In this document: positions 4,376 through 20,465 of the stretch, piece by piece | Position numbering within the stretch: position 1 is the first letter of the stretch | How the letters are laid out: each line of letters opens with the position of its first letter | Source of the DNA: a virus | DNA length: 22,701 bases | Strand: one strand, 5' to 3' | IMG/VR virus record: IMGVR_UViG_3300017708_001836 | Span: 1 to 22,701 of that record | Program-made: the position numbers and the translations under genes | The notes under the pieces: generated by a model | The model's input: only the letters and a program-made list of their open reading frames with translations | What the model was told of the DNA's origin: nothing | Databases searched by the model: none

Positions 4376-7300
4376 ATGACTAATTCCTCTACTATCTCTA
4401 CAATCATGGGACCAAGTGGACCGAGAGGACCACAAGCACCTTTAGGATCAACAGGACCAACTGGTCCAATTGGTCCTACTGGATCAATTGGAGCCACAGG
4501 ACCAACTGGATATGCTATAGTTGGTTGGACTGCTGGAATCATAGATTGTAATAGTAGAGTTCTTGTCAACGCTGACGGATCTACCGCATCGCTTGGACCT
4601 ATTGCTGGAAAAACAGCAGGTAGCAACGGTTCAGTAGGAACGCCAAACTTTTACGTTCAGCAGTTGGGTGGTGGGGCTCAGATCTTCAAAAACTCAGAAG
4701 GCGATACTGCATTTTTCCGATCTTTTAGAACCAGTCCCGATATTAATATCAATGAAACCCCAAACAACATTGAGTTAAACGCTCCATTTGGTTCTGGTCT
4801 ATTATCACAAGTTGTTGGTAAGACAGGTGAACTCTTACACTATGCGGGAACTACTTTTATTCGAGGTGCAGATGATACTTTCTTTGCAGAAGGCCTTAGT
4901 GCCGAAGAAGGTTCTCTCCAGGCAGTTCTTGGAGACTTTAAAGAATTAATCAAACGTTATGATCCAGAAAACGGGGAATCAATAACTGTAGATACAACAA
5001 TCACAAACAATCATTATATTGTTGGTCAAGCGGATTTTGAAATTACAGATGCTATTGTAAATGTTCAAGGTTTTGAACCTGTAACAACAGACGATGTGAC
5101 TTTTGGTGAAACAGTAAATACAACATTCATAATTAAAAATGGTGGACTAGCGAAAAACCAAAACCCGTTCAATGAAAACAAGTTCAAGTTCAGTCCAGTG
5201 GGGCCCACTTTCAGTACAACCAGCACTGACATTGTAAACTGCATCACTTTCAACAATGGTGAAACTTGGCAGTGCTTCATCGCTGGTAGAGATTATGATA
5301 CTACGTTTGATGGAACACTTAAAATAGGAGCCTGTTGTGGTGAAGAATGTAATGATTATGTTCTTTCACAAAACTGCTCAGGTTCTTTCTTCAATCAAAT
5401 TTCCTGCAATGCAGATCCATGTGATGGAACACTCGGTTCATGTTGTGTAAATAATTCTTGCTTTAGATTTTCTTTAACCAAATGTAGTGATATCGGTGGT
5501 AAATTTTTTCCAAATCTATTATGTGAAGATTTTACGTGTCCCGGTCCATGTGAAGGTTTAGGTTGTTGCTGTCTCGGAATTGAAGGACAAGTTACTTCCA
5601 ATCAAGATATATGTGTTGAACTCGGTGGTTTGTTTAATGATGAAAAAACTTGTGAAGGATTTATTATTGATGGTGAAGATGGTTGTGAAGAATTAACACG
5701 AGGATGTTGCTGCCTTCCTGATACATCTCAAGTGTCTGACGTTCTACCACTAGAGTGTCGTGATTTAGGTGGAATTCACATGGGTGCTGGAACTCAATGC
5801 AGTGAGGTAGATTGTTGTGCAGGTAGAAGCATACCAACAGGAGCGTGTTGTTGTTCTGATGGCACATGTAACGATCGAATAGTACAGACTCTATGTCCTT
5901 CTAATTGTCAATGGACTCAAGATGCAGGATGTGATGTTTGTGGTACAGTTCTAAATTGCAACTGTACACAAGAAGGTGAAAACCAACCCCCCGGATTCAA
6001 GAAGTGGGCTTTGTGGATAAAAGAAATTTTTGAAGCAGAAGAGGGAGAGCCTGACATCAAACTTCTAGGGACTTTTGTTAACTTAGATGATATAAGTGGT
6101 GCTTTCGGATGTGATAGACTATCCGATGGATTACACAACACATACTACACAAATTATGAAAACGTAACACATGATGAAAAAACAGAAGCGATACCTTATG
6201 CAAGGTCATTAAATGTGCCAGGTTTCTCTAACCAAGGAAATTATTATATTCCAAGTCTAAATGAGATGGCTTTCATTGTGTTGAAGAATCGTATTCACTC
6301 TAATATTCTTATCGGAGACACAGTAAACGATGTTCCATACTGGACTTCGACGAGAGCAAACGATACTGATTTCTTCTTTGTGAATGAGTCGGGTTTTGTT
6401 TTACAAACTCAGATGTCCAATGTCGGGGAACCAAATCTGAAAAAGAGAGCCGTTGTTGTTAGAAGATTATTACTAGAAAACGGAGCAGACGAAAGTGGTC
6501 TACCAACCGTTGGTCAAGAAAATGATGATGGTGAAAAGTTTGTGGGAGTTTTTGCCGCTGGATGTTCTGTGATCTTAAGTAACCAAAATACAGGACCATA
6601 TGAACTACCAACATACACATGCTCCGATCCACTAGAAACTGGACAGTGTTGTACCAATAAAGAATGTAGTGTGGTAAATGAATATGACTGTATTTTATCT
6701 GAACCACCTGGCATTTATTCTGGAGACAACCAAAATGCTAGTTGTGTTGACAATCCCTGTAATCCAGACGGCCCAGTTCAAGTTGAAACTTTAAACTGTG
6801 CAAGAGCAGGAGTTTTATCATATAAAGCAACTGAAGTCGGAGGTCCAGATTCATGTGCAAATGGTTTATCCAAGCAACTATATTACTATGCAGGAACCGT
6901 GGACATTGATGGTGTTCCTAATGATCTCGCCAACTACGACAAATTGAATGTCACAGGTAAGAATGATACAACACCAGACTATGATATTCGTGCCGATGCA
7001 GTAGATGTAGATACAGGTATTCTTGTTCAGGGTTATTGTCTCGGACATGATAAGGCAATGGAGTGTAATACAGATAGAAACATTCTATCCCCCACTGCGA
7101 TTGCAGCACCAACACTCAGAGCCTATTGTAATCAAGATTCACTTTATGGAAAAGATTATTCCTGTGCTGATGATAATGTTTGTGGTCAAGCAAAATCTAG
7201 TTTTGATACTGTGATAGACGATTGCTTATCAGCAAATAATGATGCTCTTTGTGGAAAATCAATTCAGACAGAAACTATAGATATACTCAACACGCTAGAT

Positions 7301-10228
7301 AGCACAACGTGTAGTACCACAAACTGGCCTTCCAATACAGATTGGAATTACCCATGTAATTCTGTGGGTCCAGAATGCAATTCACCAATTCGCATATGGA
7401 ACGGCCAACAAGCGAACTGGGAAAAATCGACGAATGGAAGACCAACTGTATTCACATGTGAACCATGTTTAAACTCTTTCTGTGCATACACTACATCCGT
7501 TCGAGATGATACAGTAAATTGTTGCAAGAGTGGTGGTGAGTGGAACGATACTTGTGCTGATCTATACAAGAGTTATTTAGAGAGTGTTTACTATAATGAG
7601 TGTGGTAACTCTGTTAACCTAGACAATCCTTTCTGTGGAGGAGAGGCTACAAACATTGAGTGGTCTAATGTAAGTAATTCTAATATTGGAACTTATTCTG
7701 ATTTAGATAGGGAAACATTCGAAGAGTCTTCTACCAAGTGCAGATCCTTGATAGATGAACTACGGTCATCTAATCTGGTAGGAGAGGGTTGTAACGACTT
7801 TGATGAAGATCGTGACTTCGAGAATCTTCAGTATGTTGATTACTCTGCTAAGGCAACCTATCAAACTTTGATACAACCACTAGCGCCACTACCTGGCGGA
7901 CTGGCGTTTGAGTTCGTTCCTGTTATCTGCAACCAAACCATTCCATGTATCGCGGGACAGTCTGACTGGCCATCAGAGTTTGACAACTCAAGATATACTT
8001 CATTGCTATATGGTATCAACAATCCAGCAAATGAAAACCAATCTTTGATTGGAACAACAGACAACAATTTAGGTCTTTGTTTAAATGATGGTTGTGAAGA
8101 TAATCTACAACCGAAAACAGGAACTCCAAAGGATAGAATCGAAACGACTATTAATCAAACTCCCGCCGGTATTCAGCAACATGAGCAGAGAGGTCTGTTG
8201 ATCACAAACTGTCAGAACAGAGTATTCTGTAGAGGAGATAGTTGTACTGAGTGTGGTGGCTTTGCAGATCTTGTTGAACCATTCAATCAACCTTTAGTCT
8301 CTTGCTGGGATTGCTCAACTGGAAACTGCACACAAGAGACAACGTGTAGTGAAGACTCCTCACTCTTCCCCGCAGAGTCATGTGATCCATCAGACAACCC
8401 ATGTCCATTCGGTCAGTGCTGTGATGGAGATTGTACCGAAAAGAGACTTACAGACTGTGGTGGAGTATGGATACAAACAGATAATCCATGTCCAAACGGC
8501 AACTTAACATGCGATTGCGGATCCGATGCACTCGGTAACTGCTGTACAGATTCGGTTCATAGTTATACATGTCAAAATCAGTGTGGAGGTGCATGGGAAG
8601 AAGGACCAGACGAAGGGCCTGAATCTTGTAATTCAAATCCAACAGGTTGCTGTTATCAGGTTCTAAACACTAGTGGCGATCCTTCACTAGCAGAAGCCGT
8701 AACATCACAAACAATCGAAGCAGAGTGTGGTGGTGCAACCGACGGGATCGCCGGCGTGGGTGGTCTGATCAAAATCTCATGGACAAAGGGTGTTGATTGT
8801 AGTGCAGTAAACCCAACTGGTAGATTCTGTAAGTCCCCGCCCGCCTTCTCAATTGAAAGTTGTGAGGATAACGTATTACCAGAGGACGGAACAATTCTTA
8901 CAGGCGGTGGTAACATTAGTATTGAGAACTGGACTCTAGATGGATCATGTGTAGGAGAAAATCCATGTAACTTCTCTACTGATCTAGCACCAATTTGTTG
9001 TCAGGGAATACCAGCAACAGATGGAACTGGAGCGTTTAATTGCTTTGAAGATCCAAACCGTGCAGTATGCTTCCCTCAGTCTCTCAATGTGATTGGAAGT
9101 TCAACTACATATGCGGGTGTAGAGGATACTACATGTGACGATTTTGATTGTTCAACTCAGTCTGGCTGGGGTCACTGTTGTTACAAGTCAAGTGAGGAAG
9201 CCGAATGGCAGTGTGCATATCCAGTAGGAGAGTATCACTGCTTGAACACCTTACACTCAGATGTATCAACCAACCCATCTTGGACTCTAACTGGCAGTAA
9301 CTGTGACACATGTGGTGATCCTAAAGATCCAACACTAGTAAATTGCTGCTACAATGTAGATCAATTTGGAACCAAGAGATGTCGTGTTGTTGAGGAAGGT
9401 AATTGCACCGCCTCAATATTAAGTGGATGTGGTGTTAGAGATATGGTTGGAACCAACACCAATGTTAACGGAAGTGCCAGTGTAGATTCTGAAGTGTGTG
9501 ATGTGTGTAACGGATGTGGTTCGCCTTCTTTAGTTAACTGCTGTTTCGACAATGGATCAGAATGTATTATGGTTCCCGAAGATCAATGTAATACTAGTGG
9601 ACTCAACCTATGCGATAGGGCCTGGAGTATTAGTCCTCCAGTAGTTAGTGGAAACGTAACTGATTCCGACGCAATTGGTTGTCAGGAATGTGCCGCGGGA
9701 TCCTGTGAGACTAACCCCTATACAGAGGGTTTTGAAGGTCTTGCGTGTGGAGGATTAAGTCCTCAGGGTTCTCAGTGTCCTTGCTGTCAAGATACCTATG
9801 GAGCGGGTTCGCTATTTAGGAACCAATTGTCAATTGAAAAAATAAACTTCAGATATATTCCGGAGAATCTAGGTATTCCCGAAGAATGGCGAATAGAACT
9901 AATATTCAGTAACAATGATGAAGCACAAGACTTTAAAGCAAATTATACTCTTGAGAATATTAACAACACGACGAATGATAAGGATGGAGATCAATTCATA
10001 AGATTCCGCGAGGAGGCCACCGAGGTAGGACCAGAGTATATTCCAAATGTATTACCAGACTTTCCATTCGGCGAGACCAATAGCGAAAAATTATACTTTA
10101 GTTCGTTCTCAAACGCGGTAGAAATAACATCTGGTAATTCCAGACCTGTTAAAGAATTCTTTAGTAATGCAAATAACGAAAATGCATTCATTAACGGTCG
10201 GGCTAGATGGAGAGTAAGATTTCCCTGA
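4376..10228 (+). CDS. Giant collagen-like, cysteine-rich fibre/adhesin protein with a lectin-like domain
   Basis: A 1950-residue protein, no family recognised as a whole. The start has only a weak Shine-Dalgarno (GTGAG), but the collagen-like segment begins 11 residues in. Order of parts: Gly-X-Y segment (12-47); beta-rich head (about 55-180) resembling the previous gene; beta-sandwich-like module (about 220-315, ending ITFNNGETWQCFIAG); first cysteine-rich modules (about 318-535); a DUF1566/C-type-lectin-like domain (about 540-702, with YYIPSLNEMAFIV, PYWTSTRAND and RAVVVRRL); more cysteine-rich segments with a long unrecognised middle (about 830-1340); a second module array (about 1345-1805); and a Cys-free C-terminal domain of about 140 residues. 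There are about 15 CC-containing modules. No signal peptide is visible, as expected for a virion protein released by lysis. I infer a long disulfide-rich fibre that binds a surface ligand. Confidence 0.75.
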   Translation: MTNSSTISTIMGPSGPRGPQAPLGSTGPTGPIGPTGSIGATGPTGYAIVGWTAGIIDCNSRVLVNADGSTASLGPIAGKTAGSNGSVGTPNFYVQQLGGGAQIFKNSEGDTAFFRSFRTSPDININETPNNIELNAPFGSGLLSQVVGKTGELLHYAGTTFIRGADDTFFAEGLSAEEGSLQAVLGDFKELIKRYDPENGESITVDTTITNNHYIVGQADFEITDAIVNVQGFEPVTTDDVTFGETVNTTFIIKNGGLAKNQNPFNENKFKFSPVGPTFSTTSTDIVNCITFNNGETWQCFIAGRDYDTTFDGTLKIGACCGEECNDYVLSQNCSGSFFNQISCNADPCDGTLGSCCVNNSCFRFSLTKCSDIGGKFFPNLLCEDFTCPGPCEGLGCCCLGIEGQVTSNQDICVELGGLFNDEKTCEGFIIDGEDGCEELTRGCCCLPDTSQVSDVLPLECRDLGGIHMGAGTQCSEVDCCAGRSIPTGACCCSDGTCNDRIVQTLCPSNCQWTQDAGCDVCGTVLNCNCTQEGENQPPGFKKWALWIKEIFEAEEGEPDIKLLGTFVNLDDISGAFGCDRLSDGLHNTYYTNYENVTHDEKTEAIPYARSLNVPGFSNQGNYYIPSLNEMAFIVLKNRIHSNILIGDTVNDVPYWTSTRANDTDFFFVNESGFVLQTQMSNVGEPNLKKRAVVVRRLLLENGADESGLPTVGQENDDGEKFVGVFAAGCSVILSNQNTGPYELPTYTCSDPLETGQCCTNKECSVVNEYDCILSEPPGIYSGDNQNASCVDNPCNPDGPVQVETLNCARAGVLSYKATEVGGPDSCANGLSKQLYYYAGTVDIDGVPNDLANYDKLNVTGKNDTTPDYDIRADAVDVDTGILVQGYCLGHDKAMECNTDRNILSPTAIAAPTLRAYCNQDSLYGKDYSCADDNVCGQAKSSFDTVIDDCLSANNDALCGKSIQTETIDILNTLDSTTCSTTNWPSNTDWNYPCNSVGPECNSPIRIWNGQQANWEKSTNGRPTVFTCEPCLNSFCAYTTSVRDDTVNCCKSGGEWNDTCADLYKSYLESVYYNECGNSVNLDNPFCGGEATNIEWSNVSNSNIGTYSDLDRETFEESSTKCRSLIDELRSSNLVGEGCNDFDEDRDFENLQYVDYSAKATYQTLIQPLAPLPGGLAFEFVPVICNQTIPCIAGQSDWPSEFDNSRYTSLLYGINNPANENQSLIGTTDNNLGLCLNDGCEDNLQPKTGTPKDRIETTINQTPAGIQQHEQRGLLITNCQNRVFCRGDSCTECGGFADLVEPFNQPLVSCWDCSTGNCTQETTCSEDSSLFPAESCDPSDNPCPFGQCCDGDCTEKRLTDCGGVWIQTDNPCPNGNLTCDCGSDALGNCCTDSVHSYTCQNQCGGAWEEGPDEGPESCNSNPTGCCYQVLNTSGDPSLAEAVTSQTIEAECGGATDGIAGVGGLIKISWTKGVDCSAVNPTGRFCKSPPAFSIESCEDNVLPEDGTILTGGGNISIENWTLDGSCVGENPCNFSTDLAPICCQGIPATDGTGAFNCFEDPNRAVCFPQSLNVIGSSTTYAGVEDTTCDDFDCSTQSGWGHCCYKSSEEAEWQCAYPVGEYHCLNTLHSDVSTNPSWTLTGSNCDTCGDPKDPTLVNCCYNVDQFGTKRCRVVEEGNCTASILSGCGVRDMVGTNTNVNGSASVDSEVCDVCNGCGSPSLVNCCFDNGSECIMVPEDQCNTSGLNLCDRAWSISPPVVSGNVTDSDAIGCQECAAGSCETNPYTEGFEGLACGGLSPQGSQCPCCQDTYGAGSLFRNQLSIEKINFRYIPENLGIPEEWRIELIFSNNDEAQDFKANYTLENINNTTNDKDGDQFIRFREEATEVGPEYIPNVLPDFPFGETNSEKLYFSSFSNAVEITSGNSRPVKEFFSNANNENAFINGRARWRVRFP
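4409..4516 (+). repeat. Collagen-like Gly-X-Y repeat, one imperfect triplet
   Basis: Codons 12-47 of the 1950-codon gene encode GPS GPR GPQ APL GST GPT GPI GPT GSI GAT GPT GYA. One Gly is replaced by Ala in the fourth triplet. It has nearly the same length and position as the repeat of the preceding gene, suggesting a shared fibre attachment or trimerisation stalk. Confidence 0.88.
5326..5944 (+). repeat. Cysteine-rich module array I (five modules)
   Basis: Five successive degenerate modules begin with GACC, GSCC, GCCC, GCCC and GACCC. The rough pattern is G-x-C-C, a third Cys a few residues later, C-x3-GG with an aromatic or hydrophobic residue, then C-x2-4-C. Module length is about 35-45 residues. 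The repeats are clear in protein and diverged in DNA, so they are old or fast-evolving. The pattern resembles a GACC...GG...C repeat that I recall from large secreted proteins of planctomycetes; that link is from memory and unchecked. Confidence 0.75.
8410..9787 (+). repeat. Cysteine-rich module array II
   Basis: About eight further CC-containing modules with starts such as FGQCCDGDC, LGNCCTDS, TGCCYQV, PICCQGI, WGHCCYKS, VNCCYNV, VNCCFDN and CPCCQDT. Spacing is less regular than in array I, with modules from about 28 to 65 residues, some with long inserts. The even-looking Cys pairing suggests disulfide-stabilised beads rather than metal sites, but no pairing can be proved from sequence. Confidence 0.7.
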
Positions 10229-10253
10229 GTCTGATATATAATAAGAGGATCAT

Positions 10254-13200
10254 ATGGCTTACACTACGTTTCAATCTATAACTGGACCTTCGGGACCAGA
10301 GGGAATTAAAGCAATCGGTGCCACTGGTAATACTGGTGACACTGGTCCTATTGGTGTAACTGGACCAGATGCTCCTTATGTTTTACGTTATAAGTGGTCT
10401 GAAATTGATCCATCCAATGGTGAAGAAAGAATCAAACTAACACTGTCTGATGAGAGTGTGGTTTATGTTGCTGGTATTTCTGGACAGAATGCTTATGTTG
10501 AAGGAGTGACTGCACTCGGTGATTCAGTCGGCAATCCATCTGGTCAAATCTTCAAACAAACCACCACTGCTGGTCCAAATCCAAGCGGAGCAACTTTTCA
10601 ATTCAGAGGACTAACTGCTGCCGTTGATCTTGGCATTGAGTTCGACGAAGATACGATTTCCATCTCCTCTCCATTAGGAATAACAACGGGTTATGTAGAT
10701 TCAGGTAGCACAGGTGAGTTCCTATTCCTATCTCCTCGCTATAAAGCACAAGGCGGCTCTGGTAGTTTTTATGATAATTCTGGTGTATCAAATCCCACTG
10801 GAACTGATAATACAATAAATGTCAAGTTCAGAAATGCTACTACTAATCTTGGCGATGAGTATAGTGCTGACTTCTGTGAATTGATCGTGGTGAGTGATGG
10901 GGGAGATGAATTAAAAGAATATATTCTTGATGTAAAAAATCTAGTTCGCTTTAGTCCACCAGAAGAAAACGGAAAACGTTTTGGTTATCTCTGTATGAGT
11001 GTTAGATTTTTGAGTGTTCCAGATCGACTTGTAGTTCTACGAACAAAGGTAGACGACGATCAAGATACGGAAATAATTCGTAAACCTTTATATGGTGCTT
11101 CTGAGGTAAACTTTGAAAATCCACTAGAAGGTAACCTTCTACTTGTTTCTGGAGAAAATAATAATGGAGAAGGTTATGGTAACACCGATTATCGTCGAGA
11201 TATAATAGGTTTCAATACACCATATCAAAATTTAAATGAAGGTTATTCGGCGGGTATCCATCCTCAAGTGTGGAGTGGATCTACGGGCGCACCTGCCGTT
11301 GATTACCCCAGCGAACAAGCAGTAATTTTTGATACGAACTGTGTATCTGACGATAGTCTAGAAGGTAAGTTCTTTAGAGGTAAACCATTCTGCACAGATC
11401 CAGACTCTGACTTGGGCGAAAAAACACATAGTTATTGTATTCGTATAGAAGAAGATTATTTTGAATCTCAAAATGAAAGCAGTCCGTGGTATGGTAAGAT
11501 TCGTTTAGTTGTAATGCCTGGTTGTGGATTCGTTTCGTCGAACGGCACTGCATGGAACTGGAAAATTTCATGTGATTCAGTTTGTTCGTGTCAGGATGCA
11601 GGTACAGTAGAAGACAATCCGTATGGTGGTTGTTGTACCAGTACAGTTTCAGAATGTGATTCGTTAATAAGTGGATCTATTAGCGGTAGAGTAGAACTCG
11701 ATATTACTAATACCGACGTTTTTAATGTTTCTGCACCTATTGATATCTCAGGTATTACTTGGTCATATGAACAGCGGGCTGGAATATCTCTTGGTAGTAA
11801 TGATGGTAATGAATTTGGTGAAATGAAAAACGTCACTCTCATTATTGATGGCGGGCCAAATAATATCAAATTCCCAGAAAATATAAAATTTGCTGGAACA
11901 CCAATTTTCACAAACGGTGTTGATATAGTAAACCTTGTAACAATTGATAATGGTGGCACTTGGTTTGCAACACAAACAGGATATGGTTGGGATGTTGATA
12001 TATTCAAAGAAGATGAATTAGGATCATGTTGTAGTAATCTTGGTTGTATTAACTTTGTAAATAAAACATACTGTGATGGATTAAATGGATCTTTTGAGTC
12101 ATCAGTTCCCTGCTATAGAAGAACTGATTCAGAATGCGGTGGCGGAATTACAGGTGGATGTTGTTCTGGAATAGAGGGTGTAGTAAATACAGGAATTCTT
12201 TGTGATGATGGTGATTATGAACCACCACCTGGCCACTCTTGCTGTGGAGATGACGGCAATGATTGTATACCTACCGGAGCAGATTTTCCAGAATATTTAA
12301 ATTGTTTTCTTGGAAATTGTGATGTGTGTTGTGGTGAAGGAAAGTTTAACTATGCACACTGTGATTTCGACGTATGTAATTTACCAGTACAGAAGTGTTG
12401 TTTTGCTGATAGAGGATATTGTTTAACAATAGCAGATGGTTGTAATAGTTGTGAGTCGTTAGGTGCAACAACAGTAACCAGTTGTGAAGAATGTAATATA
12501 GGAAACGACTTACCAGTTAAATGCTGTGCGCCATGTCCATTTGGTTGTGTTGAAGTTCGAGATACGGCCGCTTGTACTGAACTACAAGGAACTCCTTCAC
12601 CCAACGGTTTATGTTCAGGATGCTTAGGTCAACCTCAGTATGGTGAGGGAGCAAGTGCTTCTGCACCACCTAAATGTTTAACACCATCTACTCTACTACA
12701 ATGTAATTTAATCAATGGATATTTTGTTCCATCATCAGTAACAGAAGATGTGTGTAGTATTTGTGACGATATAAATGTATGTAGTCCTGATCCAGTAGGT
12801 GCTTGTTGTGACGACGCAAATGGCAATTGTCGTGGTATCATGTTGGAAAGTATTTGTCTTGCGATCGCTGAGACGAATCCTGGCACAATATGGTTGGGAC
12901 CAAATACAGAATGTGATGATTGTTGTGGTAATCAAGAGTTCCGTGGAGCGTGTTGCTTCTGCGACGAAAATTGTGTAGGGGATTTAACTACACAAGAATG
13001 TTCTTCGTTACAAGGAATCTTTATGGGAATAGATTCTACATGTGGTTCTGTTAATTGTAGCATTGCAGGGCCTTGTATCTGTCCATGTGAATTAACTGGT
13101 TGTTGTGATTGTCCTACTGGACATCCATTTAGAAGTCCTTGTTGTGATGACCCACAGTCTCCTGAGTGTTGTGGTCCTACTGATAGTTGTGACGATGATG

Positions 13201-14666
13201 ATGATGACGACGACGATGACGATGATGAGGATCGCGAAATAGATGATACTGAAGGTTTCTTTTTCTCAGGATTTGGGGCCGTGAGTAGTCCCGGCAATGG
13301 TAGCGTAACTCCGGACTTGCCTTGGGTTAAGGGAGCATGTTGTTTGGATGGGGGGAACTGTTTTCATTTTATTCAACCTTCCATTTGGTTGGGCCAGCAG
13401 ATAGATCCGAGTAATCCCGATAGTTATTTCAACACAAATAATCGATGCAAAGAATCAGTGGGTGGAGTGTGGCATCCATGGCAAACTTGTGACGATGTAG
13501 GATGTGTTAAGGGTGATTTTATTGCTGCATGTTGTTGTGCAACTTGGAGTATTGATTGTGATGACAATGAAGAAAAGATTGATCCTGAAAATCCAAATGA
13601 AGGATGCGAATGCGACATAGATGACATTGTAATTACTTGTAGTGATTGTGGTTTCAATGGTGGAAAGCCTGGTTTTTCAAAACCAGTAGGTTCTGCTGGT
13701 GGTCCATATAAACCAATACCACCAGGCTATCCTCCAGTGTTTTCACCACCCGGTGCTACAGCCTTCAAAGGAAGACCATCTTTTAAACCATTCGTCACTC
13801 CAGAAGGAAATGAAATTCCATACAATGCAGGTGAATGTTGTAGAAATCCCGGTGGTTGCAAATCAGCACCATGTACTCTAGATCAAAGAATATATTTTGC
13901 TGACGAATTTGATATAACACCTAGTGGTTCTAGTGGCGAAATATGTGATGAATACAATCAACTAGGGGACTTCGCCGGCGACTGTCTCGGTGATGAAGGA
14001 CTATGTAGTGAAAATAGTGATCAGAGTAGAATTGCAAAGGAGTGTGGTTGGTGTTCGGGCTCTGGTGTCTGTCCTGTCGGCGATGGTTGTCAGTTCGCGG
14101 AAGGAATAGATAGAACAATAATAGATCCAGAAACAGGAAGTCCAAAATATCTATTAGATGCTGCTAACACATCTTCATGTGATGTATGTAATTGCATCAA
14201 TTGTACAAACTTGTGTCCGGGTCCGAATAATCGATTATGTGAAGATAAAATACAAAGCACATGCAGGTTATTGTTCGATAAGAGTACAAAGAGAAGTCCA
14301 TCTGTGACAGGAACTTCATGCGATACTCCAGTAAGAATACCTGCCAATAAGAATCCTCATAGAAATGGTGGAAGTAATTCAGCGTCCGGTTTTAATAATC
14401 ATATACCGTCAAATAAACCACCATACAAGCCAGATCCAAATAGCATTTGTCGAAAGAATGGTAGAGTATTTGGACCATCTTTGAAAGATGGCGGAAACGG
14501 AAATACTGAATATCCGTCACCTTTCTATAGATCAAATATAAACAGACAGGCAGTCAATGAGTCTAATAAACAAAACGACATAGATTTTAGACAGATAAAT
14601 ACTACAGTGAAATTAGTGATATCTAAACTAAATGGTAAAACTAATATAAGTTATAAGCGAAGGTAA
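10254..14666 (+). CDS. Large collagen-like, cysteine-rich fibre protein with a poly-aspartate tract
   Basis: A 1470-residue protein with a good ribosome binding site (AAGAGGA at 10243-10249). Order of parts: an interrupted Gly-X-Y segment (11-39); beta-rich head (about 40-450) with a mid part (SYCIRIEEDYFES, WYGKIRLVVMPGCGF) I do not recognise; a beta-sandwich-like module (about 480-580, IVNLVTIDNGGTWFATQTG) matching one in the preceding gene; cysteine-rich modules (about 588-1090); 12 consecutive Asp (980-991) inside the module array; a Pro-rich segment (about 1136-1183, GPYKPIPPGYPPVFSPPGA); further Cys clusters; and a Lys/Arg/Asn-rich C-terminus ending KLNGKTNISYKRR. It is a paralogue of its upstream neighbour in layout, without the lectin-like domain. 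I infer a secreted-type, virion-attached fibre; the aspartates could bind calcium. No known family covers the whole chain. Confidence 0.72.
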   Translation: MAYTTFQSITGPSGPEGIKAIGATGNTGDTGPIGVTGPDAPYVLRYKWSEIDPSNGEERIKLTLSDESVVYVAGISGQNAYVEGVTALGDSVGNPSGQIFKQTTTAGPNPSGATFQFRGLTAAVDLGIEFDEDTISISSPLGITTGYVDSGSTGEFLFLSPRYKAQGGSGSFYDNSGVSNPTGTDNTINVKFRNATTNLGDEYSADFCELIVVSDGGDELKEYILDVKNLVRFSPPEENGKRFGYLCMSVRFLSVPDRLVVLRTKVDDDQDTEIIRKPLYGASEVNFENPLEGNLLLVSGENNNGEGYGNTDYRRDIIGFNTPYQNLNEGYSAGIHPQVWSGSTGAPAVDYPSEQAVIFDTNCVSDDSLEGKFFRGKPFCTDPDSDLGEKTHSYCIRIEEDYFESQNESSPWYGKIRLVVMPGCGFVSSNGTAWNWKISCDSVCSCQDAGTVEDNPYGGCCTSTVSECDSLISGSISGRVELDITNTDVFNVSAPIDISGITWSYEQRAGISLGSNDGNEFGEMKNVTLIIDGGPNNIKFPENIKFAGTPIFTNGVDIVNLVTIDNGGTWFATQTGYGWDVDIFKEDELGSCCSNLGCINFVNKTYCDGLNGSFESSVPCYRRTDSECGGGITGGCCSGIEGVVNTGILCDDGDYEPPPGHSCCGDDGNDCIPTGADFPEYLNCFLGNCDVCCGEGKFNYAHCDFDVCNLPVQKCCFADRGYCLTIADGCNSCESLGATTVTSCEECNIGNDLPVKCCAPCPFGCVEVRDTAACTELQGTPSPNGLCSGCLGQPQYGEGASASAPPKCLTPSTLLQCNLINGYFVPSSVTEDVCSICDDINVCSPDPVGACCDDANGNCRGIMLESICLAIAETNPGTIWLGPNTECDDCCGNQEFRGACCFCDENCVGDLTTQECSSLQGIFMGIDSTCGSVNCSIAGPCICPCELTGCCDCPTGHPFRSPCCDDPQSPECCGPTDSCDDDDDDDDDDDDEDREIDDTEGFFFSGFGAVSSPGNGSVTPDLPWVKGACCLDGGNCFHFIQPSIWLGQQIDPSNPDSYFNTNNRCKESVGGVWHPWQTCDDVGCVKGDFIAACCCATWSIDCDDNEEKIDPENPNEGCECDIDDIVITCSDCGFNGGKPGFSKPVGSAGGPYKPIPPGYPPVFSPPGATAFKGRPSFKPFVTPEGNEIPYNAGECCRNPGGCKSAPCTLDQRIYFADEFDITPSGSSGEICDEYNQLGDFAGDCLGDEGLCSENSDQSRIAKECGWCSGSGVCPVGDGCQFAEGIDRTIIDPETGSPKYLLDAANTSSCDVCNCINCTNLCPGPNNRLCEDKIQSTCRLLFDKSTKRSPSVTGTSCDTPVRIPANKNPHRNGGSNSASGFNNHIPSNKPPYKPDPNSICRKNGRVFGPSLKDGGNGNTEYPSPFYRSNINRQAVNESNKQNDIDFRQINTTVKLVISKLNGKTNISYKRR
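10284..10370 (+). repeat. Collagen-like Gly-X-Y repeat, interrupted
   Basis: Codons 11-39 of the 1470-codon gene encode nine Gly-X-Y triplets (GPS GPE GIK, then GAT GNT GDT GPI GVT GPD) with a two-residue interruption (AI) after the third. It is the shortest and most degenerate of the three neighbouring collagen-like starts. Confidence 0.8.
12015..12033 (+). repeat. 19-base exact repeat, copy 1
   Basis: GAATTAGGATCATGTTGTA encodes the ELGSCC start of a cysteine-rich module. The same 19 bases recur in frame at 15212-15230 in the next gene. Flanking bases differ, so this is a short identity inside otherwise diverged modules. Confidence 0.85.
12018..13523 (+). repeat. Cysteine-rich module array III
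   Basis: Modules begin with LGSCC, TGGCC, VQKCC, PVKCC, VGACC, RGACC, TGCC and KGACC, with the pattern C-C-x-n-C-x-n-C-x3-G...C-x2-4-C. Typical examples run from VGACCDDANGNC and RGACCFCDENC to the closing CGSVNC. The poly-Asp tract lies between two modules. The array differs in spacing from the arrays in the neighbouring genes but uses the same basic unit. Confidence 0.72.
13191..13226 (+). repeat. Poly-aspartate tract: 12 GAC/GAT codons
   Basis: Twelve consecutive Asp codons, a mix of GAT and GAC, followed by Glu, Asp and Arg. The trinucleotide tract could change length by replication slippage without breaking the frame. An acidic run of this kind could bind divalent cations; that is inference only. 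Confidence 0.93.
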
Positions 14667-14671
14667 TATGA

Positions 14672-17600
14672 ATGCCAATCAACTTTAGAACAAGATCAAA
14701 ATCAATTCAACCCGATCCCTCTGATGTAGGTGCGTGTTGTAAATTGAACACAGATAATACTGAATTTGTTTGTGAGGATAATGTAAAATTTATAGATTGT
14801 AAAAGAGAACTCGGATTGTTTCGAGGGAAAAATTCATCTTGTTTAAATAATTCATGTCCTACAGTAGATGATTCTGGTTTTAATGACGGTCTTGATAACT
14901 TTAATTCAGATCAACACGGAGCATGTGTAAGATGTTCTAGTTGTATTGAAAATGTAACAGAAGAATTTTGTATTGATGCAGAAAACTTTGATGCAGAATT
15001 CTTCGGGGGTAAGACTTGCAAACAAGCAGACTCTAGCATTACACCGAACAGTGTAAAGCACGCATGTTGTATCGATGATGGTTGTTTTGATACATGCAAT
15101 AAAAGTTATTGTCTAGACTTAGGTGGTATTTACCATGATGGTATTTCAACAGAACTGGCAGTTAGATGTAGTTCAAATCCATGTGGATTTGAACGACTAC
15201 CCAATACTCAAGAATTAGGATCATGTTGTAAGGCACAAAAATGTCTTGGGGTTTTAACTCAAGTGGATTGTGTCAACAATGGTGGTTCTTGGAAGGGCGA
15301 AGGAACAGACTGTAATACTAATGGTAATTACGACTGTATAAATGATCGACTTATTGGAGACAGACAACCACCCATACCAAGAGAACCCAGCGGGCTAGAG
15401 GGCGCTTCTGTGGTTTGTTCCAAACCAACCACAATGAAATATTATGGAACGACAGGTGCATGGAATGGTGTTACACTACCAGAATATACGGATGTTGAAT
15501 TAGAGGCTCGAAGGAATGCATTAAACTCTTTAGATATGCTTGATTTAAGAATAAAGGCAAGAGAAAGTGTATGGGTCGAACTTATGTCAGATGAGGGTCA
15601 ATGCACCGGTGAGGGTGGCGTCGTTAGTTCAACTGATGGTGATGTAAGCAAGGCAACTATGTGGGGTGGATGTCAGTGGTATGATAATGATGATCCGGAT
15701 CGATCTCGTTGGAGATGTGATGCTACAACATATGATGGATGTGCTGATAAGAAGGGTGTTTGGCACGCAGGACTCTATTGTGATGAAATTGAGAATTGGC
15801 CTGTAAATGGAAAATTATTAGCAAAAAACTTACCTTCGGGTGTTGGAATCAAATTTCTTGCAGGTAGATGTAATGTTATCGACAATTTAAATAATATAAG
15901 TTCCTTTGTTCCAGGCGAAAGCATTAATAATGTTGAGTGTCATGATATGTTAACAGAGTTTCAATGTTATGAAACCATGGCAAGAAGAAAAGATAGATAC
16001 GAAGCCGCAGGGAATGTGTTGCCGGCTGATCCGAGTGATTATATACGAAGTGAATGGGAGGGTGGTAAGAAGTGTACTGACTGTATTGAAGGCGGATTAG
16101 AAACTCAAGATACATTAGGTCTTTGTATTCTGGATACTGTAGCACAAGGTTCTTACTATAGCAACACAAGTGCTGGTGATTTGATTTCATATAGAGCAGG
16201 AACTGGTAAGCAGCGATCTTGTTTATCAGGGTTTACGGTCAAAGATTGTGAACTTCAATTTGGTCAGTGGATTAACACATGTGAAACATGTGAAGAACAT
16301 GACTCAACATACCCAGAGCCAGTATCAACAGGATCTTGTTGTACATCTGCAACTAACTGTGTTGATAATAAGTCCTTTGGAGAATGTGAAGCCTTAAATG
16401 GATTCTTCCACGGAGCGGGAACAGTTTGTACAGATACAAATGGAAATAGTAGAGACTGTGGTAAGGTTGCATATCTAACCAAAGACTTTTCTGATGTTCC
16501 AGTCAACTTAGATCCAGCAGTGTGTCAGTGTAAAGAGTCAGATAATCCAAATGCTGCTGATCCTGATGTAGTCAGTATTTTTGCAAGAAGAGATAGACAA
16601 AACCAAGATGACATTTGGGCTGGTTCGCAATGTGGAGATCCCACAGTTTCTGCTTTCCCATTATCAAGTCAACAAGTGGGGTATCAAGCAGATGTCATGG
16701 GACTATATTCTCTTGATGGAGGCCCTACCGACTCGGAACCAACATCGGGTAAATTTACAGACTCAAGAGAAATTTCTTTACGGAAATATAACTGGGAGTT
16801 TGAACCATTCAGAGACTTCATAAAAGGTGTTTCTGGTGCCTCTGGATCCTTCTTAGATAATATATTAATTGAATTTGGTTCACCTCTGTTCTTCCGAGTG
16901 GATAAACAAGAACCTTTCATGATTCCAAAATCAAGAGAAACACTAAAAGAAATTCGTGGTTCTGTTCTACAAACAAATCAACCAGCAAGTGATATTACAA
17001 GTATAAGTTTGAATGATCCTCAATTTGGTTGGCAGGTTGCTCCACCACCCCTTGATAGAAAGATTACTTATGTCAATCTAGAAGGAATGACAAATCTGAG
17101 AGAATTTGCAGTTCAGGGTAACAACTGGACTACTCTACAAGAAGATTTTGAGGCTGTATCATTACCTCTTCTTAGGATATTAGATCTAAGGAGTAGCAAT
17201 CTTCAAGGCCTTAATTTGGATAATGCTCTTGCAATTGAGTCTCTTAACTTAAGTAATAATAACATAACAGGAAATTATGATTTATCTTCGGCGAGATATC
17301 TCACAACTCTAGATGTTTCTTATAATAACATAAGTGAAATTGATTTTGGTAATGAAGATAAAATTTATCTAACTAATATTAATTTAAGTTACAATAATAA
17401 CTTATCTTCAATACGAGGGACTTTCCCACAGATAGTAAGTTTTAGTGCAATTAGATGTAACATATCTGAGATTGATCTAACAAAGAAACCATTCCTAACT
17501 GATATTGAATTACTAGGAAATTCATTAAGTTATGTTAAGATTTCAAAGACTCCTAGTATAAGATATATTGGATTAGATAATACTATTGGAAGTGATACAC

Positions 17601-18124
17601 AATTAAGCGAGTGTATATTGCCTACCTTAGTGAACAGAAAAATGCTCGCTAGTGATTTACCAACGTCTATTGAAGAAGCCGTAATACCAGATGTTTTATA
17701 CATGAACAAATTAAACTTCAGGAAGAACACTATCGACAATTTAGGTTATGATGATTTTGTTTCTAACTTAGCAGAAACAGTAGCAATCACATTTGTCTCT
17801 AAGTTTACTGAAACTAATTTCACAACAGTAGGTAATCTTAAAACAAGAAGTGGGTCAATATACTGTAAAGAAATTGACTTTAGTCATGTCACAGAAAGTA
17901 CAACAGAAAATTCTAGTAGTGTTGTAGAATTCCTGAAGTGTCTTTTCGGGAATGCGAATCCTGGCCAGTTGATAGGAATTTCTGGTGAAGAAAAAATAAG
18001 AATAATCTTGACGGGTATAAATACTAGTGTAAGATGGGAAAATAGTGATCCGGATAGTTTGAGAACAGCATTACAAAATGCTATCCCAACAAATGTTTAC
18101 AATAAACTAGCCCTTATAATTTGA
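14672..18124 (+). CDS. Cysteine-rich protein with C-terminal leucine-rich repeats
   Basis: An 1150-residue protein. The ATG at 14672 follows AAGG at 14660-14663; another ATG at 14668 is out of frame. Unlike its two upstream neighbours it has no collagen-like start and enters a cysteine-rich module directly (VGACCKLN at about 19). Modules recur at HGACVRC, KHACCIDD, LGSCCKAQ and, after a longer unrecognised stretch (about 240-540), TGSCCTSA. Cysteines become rare after about residue 651. Residues about 652-790 are an unrecognised linker domain. From about 796 to 975 there are leucine-rich repeats (LRILDLRSSNLQGLNL, IESLNLSNNNITGNYDL, LTTLDVSYNNISEIDF, LTNINLSYNNNLSSI), then a C-terminal domain of about 170 residues. 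LRR domains usually bind proteins, so an adhesive or receptor-binding virion protein is the best guess. Virion location is inferred from the surrounding genes. Confidence 0.72.
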   Translation: MPINFRTRSKSIQPDPSDVGACCKLNTDNTEFVCEDNVKFIDCKRELGLFRGKNSSCLNNSCPTVDDSGFNDGLDNFNSDQHGACVRCSSCIENVTEEFCIDAENFDAEFFGGKTCKQADSSITPNSVKHACCIDDGCFDTCNKSYCLDLGGIYHDGISTELAVRCSSNPCGFERLPNTQELGSCCKAQKCLGVLTQVDCVNNGGSWKGEGTDCNTNGNYDCINDRLIGDRQPPIPREPSGLEGASVVCSKPTTMKYYGTTGAWNGVTLPEYTDVELEARRNALNSLDMLDLRIKARESVWVELMSDEGQCTGEGGVVSSTDGDVSKATMWGGCQWYDNDDPDRSRWRCDATTYDGCADKKGVWHAGLYCDEIENWPVNGKLLAKNLPSGVGIKFLAGRCNVIDNLNNISSFVPGESINNVECHDMLTEFQCYETMARRKDRYEAAGNVLPADPSDYIRSEWEGGKKCTDCIEGGLETQDTLGLCILDTVAQGSYYSNTSAGDLISYRAGTGKQRSCLSGFTVKDCELQFGQWINTCETCEEHDSTYPEPVSTGSCCTSATNCVDNKSFGECEALNGFFHGAGTVCTDTNGNSRDCGKVAYLTKDFSDVPVNLDPAVCQCKESDNPNAADPDVVSIFARRDRQNQDDIWAGSQCGDPTVSAFPLSSQQVGYQADVMGLYSLDGGPTDSEPTSGKFTDSREISLRKYNWEFEPFRDFIKGVSGASGSFLDNILIEFGSPLFFRVDKQEPFMIPKSRETLKEIRGSVLQTNQPASDITSISLNDPQFGWQVAPPPLDRKITYVNLEGMTNLREFAVQGNNWTTLQEDFEAVSLPLLRILDLRSSNLQGLNLDNALAIESLNLSNNNITGNYDLSSARYLTTLDVSYNNISEIDFGNEDKIYLTNINLSYNNNLSSIRGTFPQIVSFSAIRCNISEIDLTKKPFLTDIELLGNSLSYVKISKTPSIRYIGLDNTIGSDTQLSECILPTLVNRKMLASDLPTSIEEAVIPDVLYMNKLNFRKNTIDNLGYDDFVSNLAETVAITFVSKFTETNFTTVGNLKTRSGSIYCKEIDFSHVTESTTENSSSVVEFLKCLFGNANPGQLIGISGEEKIRIILTGINTSVRWENSDPDSLRTALQNAIPTNVYNKLALII
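14729..15340 (+). repeat. Cysteine-rich module array IV (four modules)
   Basis: Four modules in a row start VGACCK, HGACVRC, KHACCI and LGSCCK, each closing with a Cys pair such as CLNNSC or CSSNPC. The third and fourth show the standard C-x3-GG-x-[YW] core (CLDLGGIY, CVNNGGSW). A fifth module lies apart near base 16336 (TGSCCTSATNC). The unit is the same as in the two preceding genes. Confidence 0.75.
15212..15230 (+). repeat. 19-base exact repeat, copy 2
   Basis: Identical to 12015-12033 and in the same reading phase (ELGSCC). The copies are about 3.2 kb apart in two adjacent genes, consistent with exchange of modules between genes, although conserved codons alone could produce part of it. 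Confidence 0.85.
17060..17590 (+). repeat. Leucine-rich repeat region
   Basis: The translation shows repeated LxxLxLxxN-type units about 20-24 residues apart: VNLEGMTNLREFAVQGNN, LRILDLRSSN, IESLNLSNNN, LTTLDVSYNN, LTNINLSYNN, then weaker units (FSAIRCN, LTDIELLGN, IRYIGLDN). Irregular unit lengths and Asn at the turn are typical of bacterial LRRs. About eight units would form a curved solenoid. Confidence 0.85.
18016..18023 (+). promoter_or_regulatory. Candidate T4-type late promoter TATAAATA
   Basis: An exact match to the T4 late promoter core TATAAATA lies inside the end of the LRR gene, 112 bases before the ATG at 18135. I noticed no other exact match on this strand. T4-like phages often place late promoters inside upstream coding sequence. 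Transcription would start near 18029 and serve the small Cys protein and the neck genes. In AT-rich DNA a chance match is quite possible. Confidence 0.35.
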
Positions 18125-18134
18125 TGGAGTTCAT

Positions 18135-18671
18135 ATGTCAGAATCAGATATCCAACGACGGCTTGATGCGGAAAAGAAAAAAAAGAACAAAAAAAAAGAA
18201 GATGTAAAGTTTGCACCTGCAAAGGAAGTAAAAAAGAAAACCCTAAAAGATAGAATTGGTATGGTAGGTTCTTTTGCTGCCGCAATGGCATCAAGAGGTT
18301 TATCAAACAATAAAATCGATAGGAAAACTAAGCAACTTCGTGTTCTTTCATGTCAGGGAAGTGGAGAACTACCACCCTGTGAATATTTAAGACAAAGTAA
18401 AGTAAATCCAGAACGATCTTATTGTGGTGGTTGTGGCTGTGGAGATAGGAAGCAAACTTGGTTAGTTGCTGAAAATGATGAGTATGGTAAACTAGATTAT
18501 CCAAAAGTTTCGTGTCCTCTAAACATGCCTGGATTTACTAACTATGAACCATCCTCCCCAGATGAGGCAAATAATCCTATCACTAGACGTTACTACATAG
18601 AACAAATGGATATGAAAGATGTAGAAATGGTTCAGGTTACAATTAACCAAGCACCACCACCAACCGCATAA
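18135..18671 (+). CDS. Small lysine-rich protein with a six-cysteine, possibly metal-binding, centre
   Basis: A 178-residue protein with GGAG at 18126-18129, five bases before the ATG. Residues 1-40 are very rich in Lys (KKKKNKKKED) and likely disordered or nucleic-acid-binding. Six cysteines occur at 73, 82, 97, 100, 102 and 127, with YCGGCGCGDRK in the middle and the block LDYPKVSCPLNMPGFTNYEP after it. The CxxCxC cluster plus outlying cysteines could hold zinc or an iron-sulfur centre. The second block looks strongly constrained, and I have an unsure memory of similar small proteins beside the neck genes of marine T4-like phages. It does not resemble the GxCC modules of the preceding fibre genes. 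Its position between fibre and neck genes suggests a structural or assembly role. Function is unknown. Confidence 0.7.
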   Translation: MSESDIQRRLDAEKKKKNKKKEDVKFAPAKEVKKKTLKDRIGMVGSFAAAMASRGLSNNKIDRKTKQLRVLSCQGSGELPPCEYLRQSKVNPERSYCGGCGCGDRKQTWLVAENDEYGKLDYPKVSCPLNMPGFTNYEPSSPDEANNPITRRYYIEQMDMKDVEMVQVTINQAPPPTA

Positions 18672-18692: not shown

Positions 18693-18730
18693 CCTCCTAT
18701 GTTCTTATACATACCTAAGAACATAGGAGG
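18693..18730 (+). promoter_or_regulatory. Perfect 15-bp hairpin hiding the gp13 ribosome binding site
   Basis: The left arm (18693-18707) CCTCCTATGTTCTTA is the exact reverse complement of the right arm (18716-18730) TAAGAACATAGGAGG, with an 8-base loop. The right arm ends in AGGAGG (18725-18730), the Shine-Dalgarno of gp13, seven bases before its ATG at 18738. In a transcript containing both arms the site would be paired and translation of gp13 reduced. No U-run follows the stem, so it is not a standard Rho-independent terminator. Confidence 0.85.
18706..18713 (+). promoter_or_regulatory. Candidate late promoter TATACATA across the hairpin loop
   Basis: TATACATA differs from the T4 late core TATAAATA by one base and lies mostly in the loop of the gp13 hairpin. 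Using T4 spacing, transcription would start near 18719, inside the right arm. Such a transcript would lack the left arm, leave AGGAGG free and allow gp13 translation. This parallels T4 genes e, soc and I-TevI. Confidence 0.4.
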
Positions 18731-18737
18731 TTCTCAT

Positions 18738-19544
18738 ATGGGTAGTCTTGCATCAAGAGAGCAAATTATCGATTACGCCATGCGTAAATTGGGCGCACCT
18801 GTTGTTGAAATTAATGTTGATTACCAGCAGGCAGAAGATCGTTTAGACGAAGCACTTGAATTCTTTACAGAACGACACTTCGATGGCGTTGAGCGTTGTT
18901 ATTTCAAGCATCAAATAACTTCTAATGATATCACAAATCGATACATCTCTACATCTAATCTACCACCCGTTGATGGTCCTACTGGAAATGGACCTGATGG
19001 TTCAGATATTGTTTCGGTTGTGAGAATCTTCCGCATGGAATCTTCGTCATCTAACATGTTTGATGTTCGTTATCAGTGGGCATTGAATGATGTCTTTGGT
19101 ATTAATACAGGCAATGCGTTTGGTGGAGGATCAGAACCTCTTGCTTCTTATGATATCTTCAGACGTTACAATAGTCTAATCAACGACTTCTTCAATCCAG
19201 ACAAGGCATTACGATTCAGTAAAGTAACAAATAAATTACACATCGATATGGACTGGTCTACTGATGCAACAGTTGGTGACTTCATAGTCGTAGAAGCGTA
19301 TGCCGCTTTGAATCCAAATTTATACACTGAGATATTTAATGATAGAATGCTAAAGAAATACTTCACTGCATTGTTAAAGAAGCAGTGGGGTATGAACATG
19401 CTCAAGTATGATGGTATTCAGTTACCTGGCGGAGTCAGTCTCAAGGGTGGAGAGATATACCAGCAAGCAGAGCAAGAGGTAGAAAGACTAGAAGAAGAGA
19501 TTAGAGGGCAATACGAACTTCCTATCGACTTCATGACAGGGTAA
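18738..19544 (+). CDS. 13: Neck protein gp13 (head completion)
   Basis: T4 gp13-like head completion/neck protein. In T4, gp13 and gp14 form the connector between the portal vertex and the tail. I chose ATG 18738 (268 residues) over the in-frame ATG 18699 because AGGAGG sits seven bases upstream and the extra 13 residues would be encoded by the hairpin. Family signs: RKLGAPVVEINVDYQQ near the start (T4 has RRLGAPIINVELTPDQ), the acidic helix ending FTERHFDGVE (about 43-52; T4 YGEYHFDGV), and the C-terminal LPGGVSLKGGEIYQQA (229-244; T4 LPGGVTIDGQRLIEEA) leading into a charged helix. It is shorter than T4 gp13 (309). It lies three bases before gp14 in the canonical order, and its translation may be controlled by the hairpin just upstream. 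Confidence 0.93.
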   Translation: MGSLASREQIIDYAMRKLGAPVVEINVDYQQAEDRLDEALEFFTERHFDGVERCYFKHQITSNDITNRYISTSNLPPVDGPTGNGPDGSDIVSVVRIFRMESSSSNMFDVRYQWALNDVFGINTGNAFGGGSEPLASYDIFRRYNSLINDFFNPDKALRFSKVTNKLHIDMDWSTDATVGDFIVVEAYAALNPNLYTEIFNDRMLKKYFTALLKKQWGMNMLKYDGIQLPGGVSLKGGEIYQQAEQEVERLEEEIRGQYELPIDFMTG

Positions 19545-19547
19545 TAA

Positions 19548-20465
19548 ATGGCAACAAATCCATACTTCAACTTTAAAAGTTCTGCTCCAGAACAAAGCCT
19601 AATGGAAGACCTAACCATCGAAGCAATCAAAACGATGGGTATGGATGTTCTATATCTTCCTAGAGAATATGTGAAGAAGGATCTTTTATTCGGAGAAGAC
19701 GTTCTTAGTCAGTTTACCAAGACATATGAAATTGAAATGTACCTCCAGAGTGTCGACGGGTTCCAAGGCGAAGGTGATATTCTAGCCAAGTATGGACTAG
19801 AGATTAAAGATAAAGTTGAGATGGTTGTTTCTCGTCGTAGGTTTATAGATGAGATTGGTAATCTAGAAACTGATATTAATCGACCAAGAGAAGGCGATCT
19901 TATATTCTTTCCCTTTGGTAATTATCTGTTTGAGATTAACTTCGTAGAGCATGAGAATCCATTCTATCAGTTAGGTAAGAATCAAACCTACCTTATTCAA
20001 GCCGAACTCTTCACCTACTCACTAGAAAAATTCCAGACTGGTGTATGTGGTCCGGATCAACTACAGAACACGAAGGAATACGCAACAGAGTTTACAGTAG
20101 GAACAGCGGTCAACTCTGGACCTGGCTACTACTTAGGTGAAACAGTATTCCAAGCCGTTGGACTAACGGGTGCAACACTAGGACAGGCAACTGCTTCTGC
20201 AACCGTAGTTGGCTGGTCACTATTAACAAGTAAACTAACAGTGTCGAGTGCGAGCGGTTCGTTTGTAACTGATGGTTCGGAAACAGTTAAAGGTAATAAA
20301 TCTGAAACAGAATACTATCTAACAGACTCAGATACTACTAACCTTATAATTCCAGAGAATGTTGTTAGTAATATTCCTGACGGTGATGCTAATACTTTTG
20401 GTGTCGAGAAACAAAGCATATTAGACTTTTCCGAAACAGATCCATTCTCGGAGGGTAACTATTAA
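19548..20465 (+). CDS. 14: Neck protein gp14
   Basis: T4 gp14-like neck protein of 305 residues (T4: 256), partner of gp13 in the head-to-tail connector. Strong family blocks: YLPREYVKKDLLFGEDVLSQ (36-55; T4 YVPREYVSPDLIFGED), MYLQSVDGFQGEGD (64-77), REGDLIFFPFGNYLFEINFV (114-133) and ENPFYQLGKNQ (136-146). The C-terminal ETDPFSEGNY echoes the SPFDNDF end of T4 gp14. Between them, residues about 190-258 are an insert (GYYLGETVFQAV...GSFVTDGSETVKG) resembling a small beta module seen in other marine phage virion proteins. The ribosome binding site is AGGG at 19538-19541. It overlaps the next gene by one base (TAATG), implying translational coupling. Confidence 0.93.
   Translation: MATNPYFNFKSSAPEQSLMEDLTIEAIKTMGMDVLYLPREYVKKDLLFGEDVLSQFTKTYEIEMYLQSVDGFQGEGDILAKYGLEIKDKVEMVVSRRRFIDEIGNLETDINRPREGDLIFFPFGNYLFEINFVEHENPFYQLGKNQTYLIQAELFTYSLEKFQTGVCGPDQLQNTKEYATEFTVGTAVNSGPGYYLGETVFQAVGLTGATLGQATASATVVGWSLLTSKLTVSSASGSFVTDGSETVKGNKSETEYYLTDSDTTNLIIPENVVSNIPDGDANTFGVEKQSILDFSETDPFSEGNY

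Follow-up and report, generated by a model that had tools for sequence, protein, structure and literature searches.

The subject of this analysis is the IMG/VR virus record IMGVR_UViG_3300017708_001836, the whole of which (22,701 nucleotides) was examined and is referred to below as the window. The left end of this 22.7-kb stretch encodes a tail-collar protein and a collagen-like protein, and its right end encodes T4-like gp13, gp14 and gp15 proteins. Between them lie three long open reading frames (ORFs), designated A, B and C, followed by the short ORF g7. Cysteine makes up 7.0% of the residues of A (136/1950), 7.3% of B (108/1470) and 4.6% of C (53/1150); the flanking structural genes g1, g2, g3, gp13, gp14 and gp15 have 0–1% and g7 has 3.4%. 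A, B and C carry a common six-cysteine module, which they share with exported planctomycete proteins and, with fair support, with the animal iRhoms. The genes in question are:

4376..10228, + strand: gene A, 1950 amino acids, 136 cysteines; collagen-like N-terminus, 6 clear Cys modules, weak Lcl_C-like region
10254..14666, + strand: gene B, 1470 amino acids, 108 cysteines; short GXY-like N-terminus, 4 clear Cys modules
14672..18124, + strand: gene C, 1150 amino acids, 53 cysteines; 4 Cys modules, then leucine-rich repeats
18135..18671, + strand: g7, 178 amino acids, companion gene with six invariant cysteines and a CGGCGCGD motif
18699..19544, + strand: gp13-like neck protein (head-tail adaptor; PHROG 211, E 1e-37)
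19548..20465, + strand: gp14 neck protein (PF11649, E 4e-43)

An iterated profile hidden Markov model (HMM) identified six modules in A, four in B and four in C; in 300 composition shuffles it found not one. Each was found by the iterated HMM, and those marked by a second method as well:

5324..5425, + strand: module A1 (residues 317–350)
5432..5542, + strand: module A2 (353–389); also leave-one-protein-out
5558..5668, + strand: module A3 (395–431), a CCC variant without the third canonical cysteine
5699..5815, + strand: module A4 (442–480), CCC variant; also leave-one-protein-out
6638..6763, + strand: module A5 (755–796)
8408..8512, + strand: module A6 (1345–1379)
12018..12131, + strand: module B1 (589–626); also leave-one-protein-out
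12795..12926, + strand: module B2 (848–891); also leave-one-protein-out
12942..13061, + strand: module B3 (897–936); also leave-one-protein-out
13329..13508, + strand: module B4 (1026–1085), with an insertion
14726..14860, + strand: module C1 (19–63)
15059..15187, + strand: module C2 (130–172); also leave-one-protein-out
15215..15340, + strand: module C3 (182–223); also DNA pattern; top sequence in alignment A2 and in the first structure model (below)
16328..16456, + strand: module C4 (553–595); also DNA pattern

A first-pass annotation of this DNA had proposed that one module family recurs dozens of times over three consecutive giant phage proteins. The location is borne out, with the first clear module starting at 5324 and the last ending at 16456 in three adjacent ORFs, and so is the single family. 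Recurrence beyond chance holds for the 14 firm copies, but "dozens" is too high: even a loose regular expression yields only 22 modules, where shuffles average 1.56, 1.46 and 0.15 for A, B and C (about 3.2 in sum). When each protein in turn was left out of the HMM, 3/6 modules of A, 4/4 of B (two of them marginal) and 3/4 of C were re-found at E ≤ 0.01, and any domain at that threshold appeared in 8/200, 7/200 and 2/200 shuffles, respectively. A strict DNA-level pattern matched twice in the window and not at all in 100 shuffles. A search of 76 module sequences against Pfam, PHROGs and NCBIfam gave no consistent family, and no Cys-rich family in these collections fits.

The cysteines are far better conserved than the proteins that carry them. 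Among relatives at 41–66% identity (three for A, three for B and six for C), the invariant cysteines are 113/136 in A, 89/108 in B and 50/53 in C (82–94%), and merely 22–25% of all residues are invariant in the same comparison. Cysteines are also lost together. Numbering them C1 to C6 within the module, C4 was missing in all three modules that had lost C1, and C6 in five of the six that had lost C2, among 829 non-redundant modules (63 of 892 having been dropped for a deleted Cys column); an earlier count on 804 modules gave 4/5 and 7/7. Because of this co-loss, and because all 16 cysteines of the matching iRhom domain are paired, the module cysteines look disulfide-paired. The pairing would be C1–C4, C2–C6 and C3–C5, the last following solely by elimination.

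The likeness to planctomycete secreted proteins, which the first-pass annotation had proposed, is confirmed by pattern and profile matches. The suggested profile search of bacterial and viral proteins was productive as well: an HMM built from viral modules finds the bacterial copies, and the iterated profiles cover both. In viral contigs, a strict pattern matched 48 stretches with one form of the first Cys codon and 51 with the other. In genomes it matched at least 119 stretches, mostly from Phycisphaerae-type metagenome-assembled genomes (MAGs) among the matches listed, with the first Cys codon fixed as TGC in this pattern, thereby favoring GC-rich genomes. Names containing Phycisphaerae, Phycisphaerales or another planctomycete group accounted for 69/80 among the matches listed (counted by eye). 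Profile rescoring backed 191 of 223 scanned loci; a match in Roseburia was discarded, as rescoring left it with nothing at E ≤ 1e-6. A single genome may hold up to 110 module matches at E ≤ 1e-6. The distribution is patchy rather than phylum-wide: modules were found in 18/101 genomes from the class of a Phycisphaerales MAG, 5/149 from the phylum of a Planctomycetia MAG and 1/148 from the phylum of a MAG with the title Bacteroidetes, the central genome being included each time.

By a crude test, export-signal-like N-termini are present in 74 of 87 complete bacterial module ORFs vs 130 of 370 other ORFs, and on virus contigs in 1 of 97 module ORFs vs 32 of 438 others; the same test found no export signal in A, B or C. 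One Phycisphaerae multicopper oxidase (L163:3996-6827) bears a Cys module. The nearest neighbors of modules from the T4-like group described below belong to that group in 67% of cases, to other virus contigs in 18% and to genomes in 15%, the T4 labels including a few loci assigned by synteny or likeness alone. These counts, which come from sequences too short to orient a transfer, suggest that the module spread mostly vertically inside the T4-like group, possibly with some exchange.

The only structurally characterized proteins that the module profiles reached were the iRhoms. The 76-row alignment A2 gave four matches at E ≤ 1 among 177,635 PDB sequences, all to iRhom1 or iRhom2, the best at 2.4e-7. 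In the same database, a virus-only profile (A3) found iRhom first, at E 1.1e-5, and a genome-only profile (A4) found only iRhom, at E 1.1e-4. When all residues but the cysteines were shuffled, there was no match at E ≤ 10. In the reciprocal direction, the iRhom2 fragment matched 20 of 13,934 ORFs from the loci at E ≤ 1 and the iRhom1 fragment 12, with none among an equal number of Cys-preserving decoys in either case; the loci had been picked by their Cys pattern, which the decoys retain. The target is the iRhom homology domain (IRHD), which is reported to contain 16 cysteines in 8 disulfides (PMC10148629, PMC11248996; for the disulfides also PMC12184519 and PMC13277793), and is described as unlike any known domain (PMC6451368, PMC10148629, PMC11248996) and as the signature of iRhoms (PMC13142363).

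The first-pass annotation had also asked for a predicted fold common to the modules, and AlphaFold2 models of the module do give one. The second of two models, computed with 37 rows for a tandem of 83 residues in virus contig L024, has a predicted local distance difference test score (pLDDT) of 92.9 and a predicted template modeling score (pTM) of 0.58; in this prediction the beads are firm and their mutual placement is loose. A Foldseek search with it over 350,542 PDB chains returned only three iRhom chains at E ≤ 10, with a root-mean-square deviation of 1.6 over 38 columns. VIA placed it on iRhom chains at residues 596–639 (Z 4.9) and 568–612 (Z 4.3), and these sites are those of the sequence search (571–606 in iRhom2). 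A viral structure library gave 16 weak matches, none with a probability above 0.28. Within the limited set of journals covered, our literature search turned up no earlier account of the module in phages or planctomycetes and none of a bacterial relative of the iRhom domain. The sharing of the module by bacteria and phages is real, and its extension to the animal iRhoms has fair support.

On the phage side, the cassette characterizes an uncultured T4-like group and is accompanied by the six-Cys protein g7. Nine virus contigs carry relatives of C, and there the order A-B-C-g7-gp13-gp14-gp15 is syntenic as far as the contigs extend; a T4 neck protein was found in 24 of 50 module-bearing virus records, with modules confirmed in all 50. 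Wherever a locus has both gp13 and a module ORF (21/21 loci, on 17 distinct contigs), all module ORFs precede gp13 on its own strand, and each of these loci also has g7. With g7 as the only query, at least 344 relatives were found. Among the 80 loci kept from these, gp13 and gp14 accompany g7 in 79; 37 loci extend 3 kb or more upstream, and 33 of them contain module ORFs, two of the other four still having a Cys-rich ORF. By contrast, none of 80 loci fetched with gp14 of Methylophilales phage Melnitz (34 with at least 3 kb upstream) had g7 or a module. The phage structural setting that the first-pass annotation had assumed for the three giant proteins is supported, with gp13, gp14 and gp15 downstream in a T4-like cassette.

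All six cysteines of g7 are invariant in a 15-member alignment; the protein has no PDB match below E 0.49 and no convincing Pfam or PHROG family. A search for Erv1/Alr in 24 phage records was silent, as were its controls, and is uninformative. No true match to A, B, C, g7, a typed two-module consensus or two relatives' proteins was found in 50,697 isolate phage records, the consensus giving one chance-level match (E 4). With B as query in viral contigs, 600 stretches matched patterns, one pattern being an Asp run, and no relative was confirmed. B itself has an Asp run of about 12 residues (window 13190–13232) adjoining a Cys cluster. No host marker was found, and TerL of the relative L007 is 57–58% identical to Methylophilales and cyanobacterial phages alike. 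The gp15-like protein of the window (20465–22525) has 686 amino acids vs 274–277 in relatives L004–L010, with a C-terminal extension of about 410. One relative's record contains a gene run (L226 and L227, G001:C1:1-40000) that by eye resembles sugar-transfer and sugar-nucleotide genes, perhaps for surface glycans. In the same record, far from the counterpart of the A-B-C trio, lies another Cys-rich ORF (L229:4205-5641; 20 cysteines in 478 amino acids).

Outside the modules, three regions of A and C resemble known domains:

4409..4510, + strand: collagen-like GXY stretch of A (residues 12–45); Pfam Collagen E 0.0018, under the curated cut-off; BclA 1wck E 0.053
6179..6385, + strand: possible Lcl_C-like domain of A (602–670); weak, E 0.13, stronger in relatives
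17093..17344, + strand: leucine-rich repeats of C (808–891); Pfam LRR_8 E 0.0031, under the cut-off; Internalin-J 3bz5 E 0.00097

The GXY triplets are evident in A, even with a Pfam score under the cut-off. Relatives of the fiber proteins have collagen-like N-termini and Lcl_C or leucine-rich (E 1e-7) C-termini, the Lcl_C matches (E 4.3e-8, 3e-4 and 0.009) being all under the Pfam cut-off. In phage Melnitz, three "tail fiber" genes are found in the matching place, directly upstream of the neck proteins. The termini of the relatives, together with the Melnitz genes, point to an architecture of trimer stalk, beads and adhesive tip.

The reading that we favor, and consider reasonably probable, is that the modules of A, B and C act as spacer beads, stapled by disulfides, in tail fibers with a collagen stalk and an adhesin tip; these would be made in the cytoplasm and probably oxidized after lysis. 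A, B and C would be long fiber or adhesin proteins of the virion in an uncultured T4-like group. The short collagen-like N-terminus of A, B and the relatives could form a trimer stalk; the beads, predicted to be small beta-beta-alpha-beta units with three disulfides each, could serve as rigid, exchangeable spacers; and the C-terminal Lcl-like or leucine-rich-repeat domains may contact the host surface and bind a receptor. Since the chains have no export signal, they would be made reduced in the cytoplasm; the disulfides would most probably arise in oxic water following lysis, or else through a helper like g7. The phage bead is the same module as that of Phycisphaerae-type exported proteins, and it is apparently also present in the IRHD. 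Several points weigh against this reading. Only 84 of the 297 cysteines lie in firm modules and 213 outside clear ones; the co-loss events are few, with C2/C6 coming from about four lineages and C1/C4 probably from one; and the window's own Collagen, Lcl_C and LRR matches in Pfam are all below the curated cut-offs.

The cysteines might instead bind metal, such as zinc or an iron-sulfur cluster, in the reduced cytoplasm, in which case A, B and C would already be folded metalloproteins when the cell lyses. The missing export signals would suit such proteins, as would the many closely spaced cysteine pairs (C-x-C, C-x2-C) elsewhere in the sequences and the CGGCGCGD motif, which gives g7 the look of a possible metal binder. 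However, the bacterial relatives of the module are mostly exported, the cysteines are co-lost in pairs, and the iRhom counterpart is disulfide-bonded according to PMC11248996, and we consider metal binding quite unlikely. Somewhat less unlikely is that A, B and C are decoration or escape proteins, e.g., glycan-binding coats or host-surface modifiers, that reside in the structural block without being fibers. Their great size and variability, their absence from Melnitz-type relatives and the leucine-rich repeats of C would suit such proteins; their fixed place before gp13 in 21/21 loci and the collagen-like stalks and Lcl_C tips of the relatives are better explained by fibers. Mis-binned planctomycete DNA, finally, could account for some virus contigs without T4 genes, whose modules are nearest to bacterial ones in 48% of nearest neighbors. 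For the window and the T4-like group this explanation is already disfavored, to the point of being very improbable: the window modules adjoin gp13–gp15, and gp13 and gp14 stand beside the cassette in nearly all g7-anchored loci.

The iRhom link has to be weighed separately, as the match could be the convergence of a small disulfide-rich fold, with only the phage and bacterial modules being homologous. The match spans merely about 38 residues. A profile made from the 12 window rows alone reaches iRhom only at E 1.1, and a tandem profile at E 0.77. The first AlphaFold2 model, of a single module from alignment A2 (pLDDT 82.7), lends the link no support, since Foldseek gave no match and VIA aligned it to iRhom2 467–566, which is not the module site. 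The scores of the second model are modest as well (Foldseek E 0.51–1.5, probability 0.84–0.98; VIA Z 4.2–4.9), as is expected for about 40 residues. On the other hand, the virus-only and genome-only profiles each find iRhom first, shuffling with the cysteines fixed abolishes the match, the iRhom2 fragment finds real ORFs and no Cys-preserving decoys, and the fold search returns iRhom chains only, at the same site. We regard convergence as a serious but doubtful contender. Our fullest proposal goes further and is put forward tentatively, as a real possibility: that the IRHD was built from a mobile six-Cys bead of planctomycete exported proteins and T4-like tail fibers, and that the phage beads, put together in the cytoplasm with the aid of a cysteine-containing helper of their own, g7, staple themselves by oxidation after lysis.

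With these results, part of a domain that has been called unlike any known one gains relatives in sequence and predicted fold, and the origin of iRhom, a central cofactor of animal sheddases, becomes testable. On the phage side, an uncultured T4-like group is defined by a fiber cassette of disulfide type, which is odd for proteins of a reducing cytoplasm, and its companion gene g7 is named.

Four known systems can be compared with this cassette. The T4-like tail fiber cluster, as in Melnitz and in the "structural protein" of Synechococcus phage S-SZBM1, occupies the same genome position beside T4-like neck genes, but Melnitz-type loci, unlike the window group, lack modules and g7 (80 loci). 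The Legionella collagen-like adhesin Lcl (PMC11162425) shares with the phage relatives a collagen-like stretch and what is probably a C-terminal Lcl_C domain; the relatives differ by the Cys modules between the two, and A of the window reaches Lcl_C only at E 0.13. The unnamed GACC-type six-Cys repeat of planctomycetes is, by profile and Cys pattern, the same module as that of the phages, which match the profile with the spacing C-C...C...C...G-x-[FWY]...C...C. The planctomycete copies lie in proteins that begin with an export-like N-terminus and in some cases also have a dockerin, multicopper oxidase or FG-GAP domain, whereas the phage copies reside in unexported fiber-type proteins. The IRHD of iRhom1 and iRhom2 (9xy4, 9q7y, 9o58, 8snl) contains one full module, with six cysteines, the same spacing and the same glycine and aromatic positions, and a half module. 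Unlike the phage repeats, it is a single membrane-tethered domain of 230–243 residues in a rhomboid pseudoprotease; A, B and C gave no match to a rhomboid family in a Pfam scan, and we do not class the phage proteins as iRhoms.

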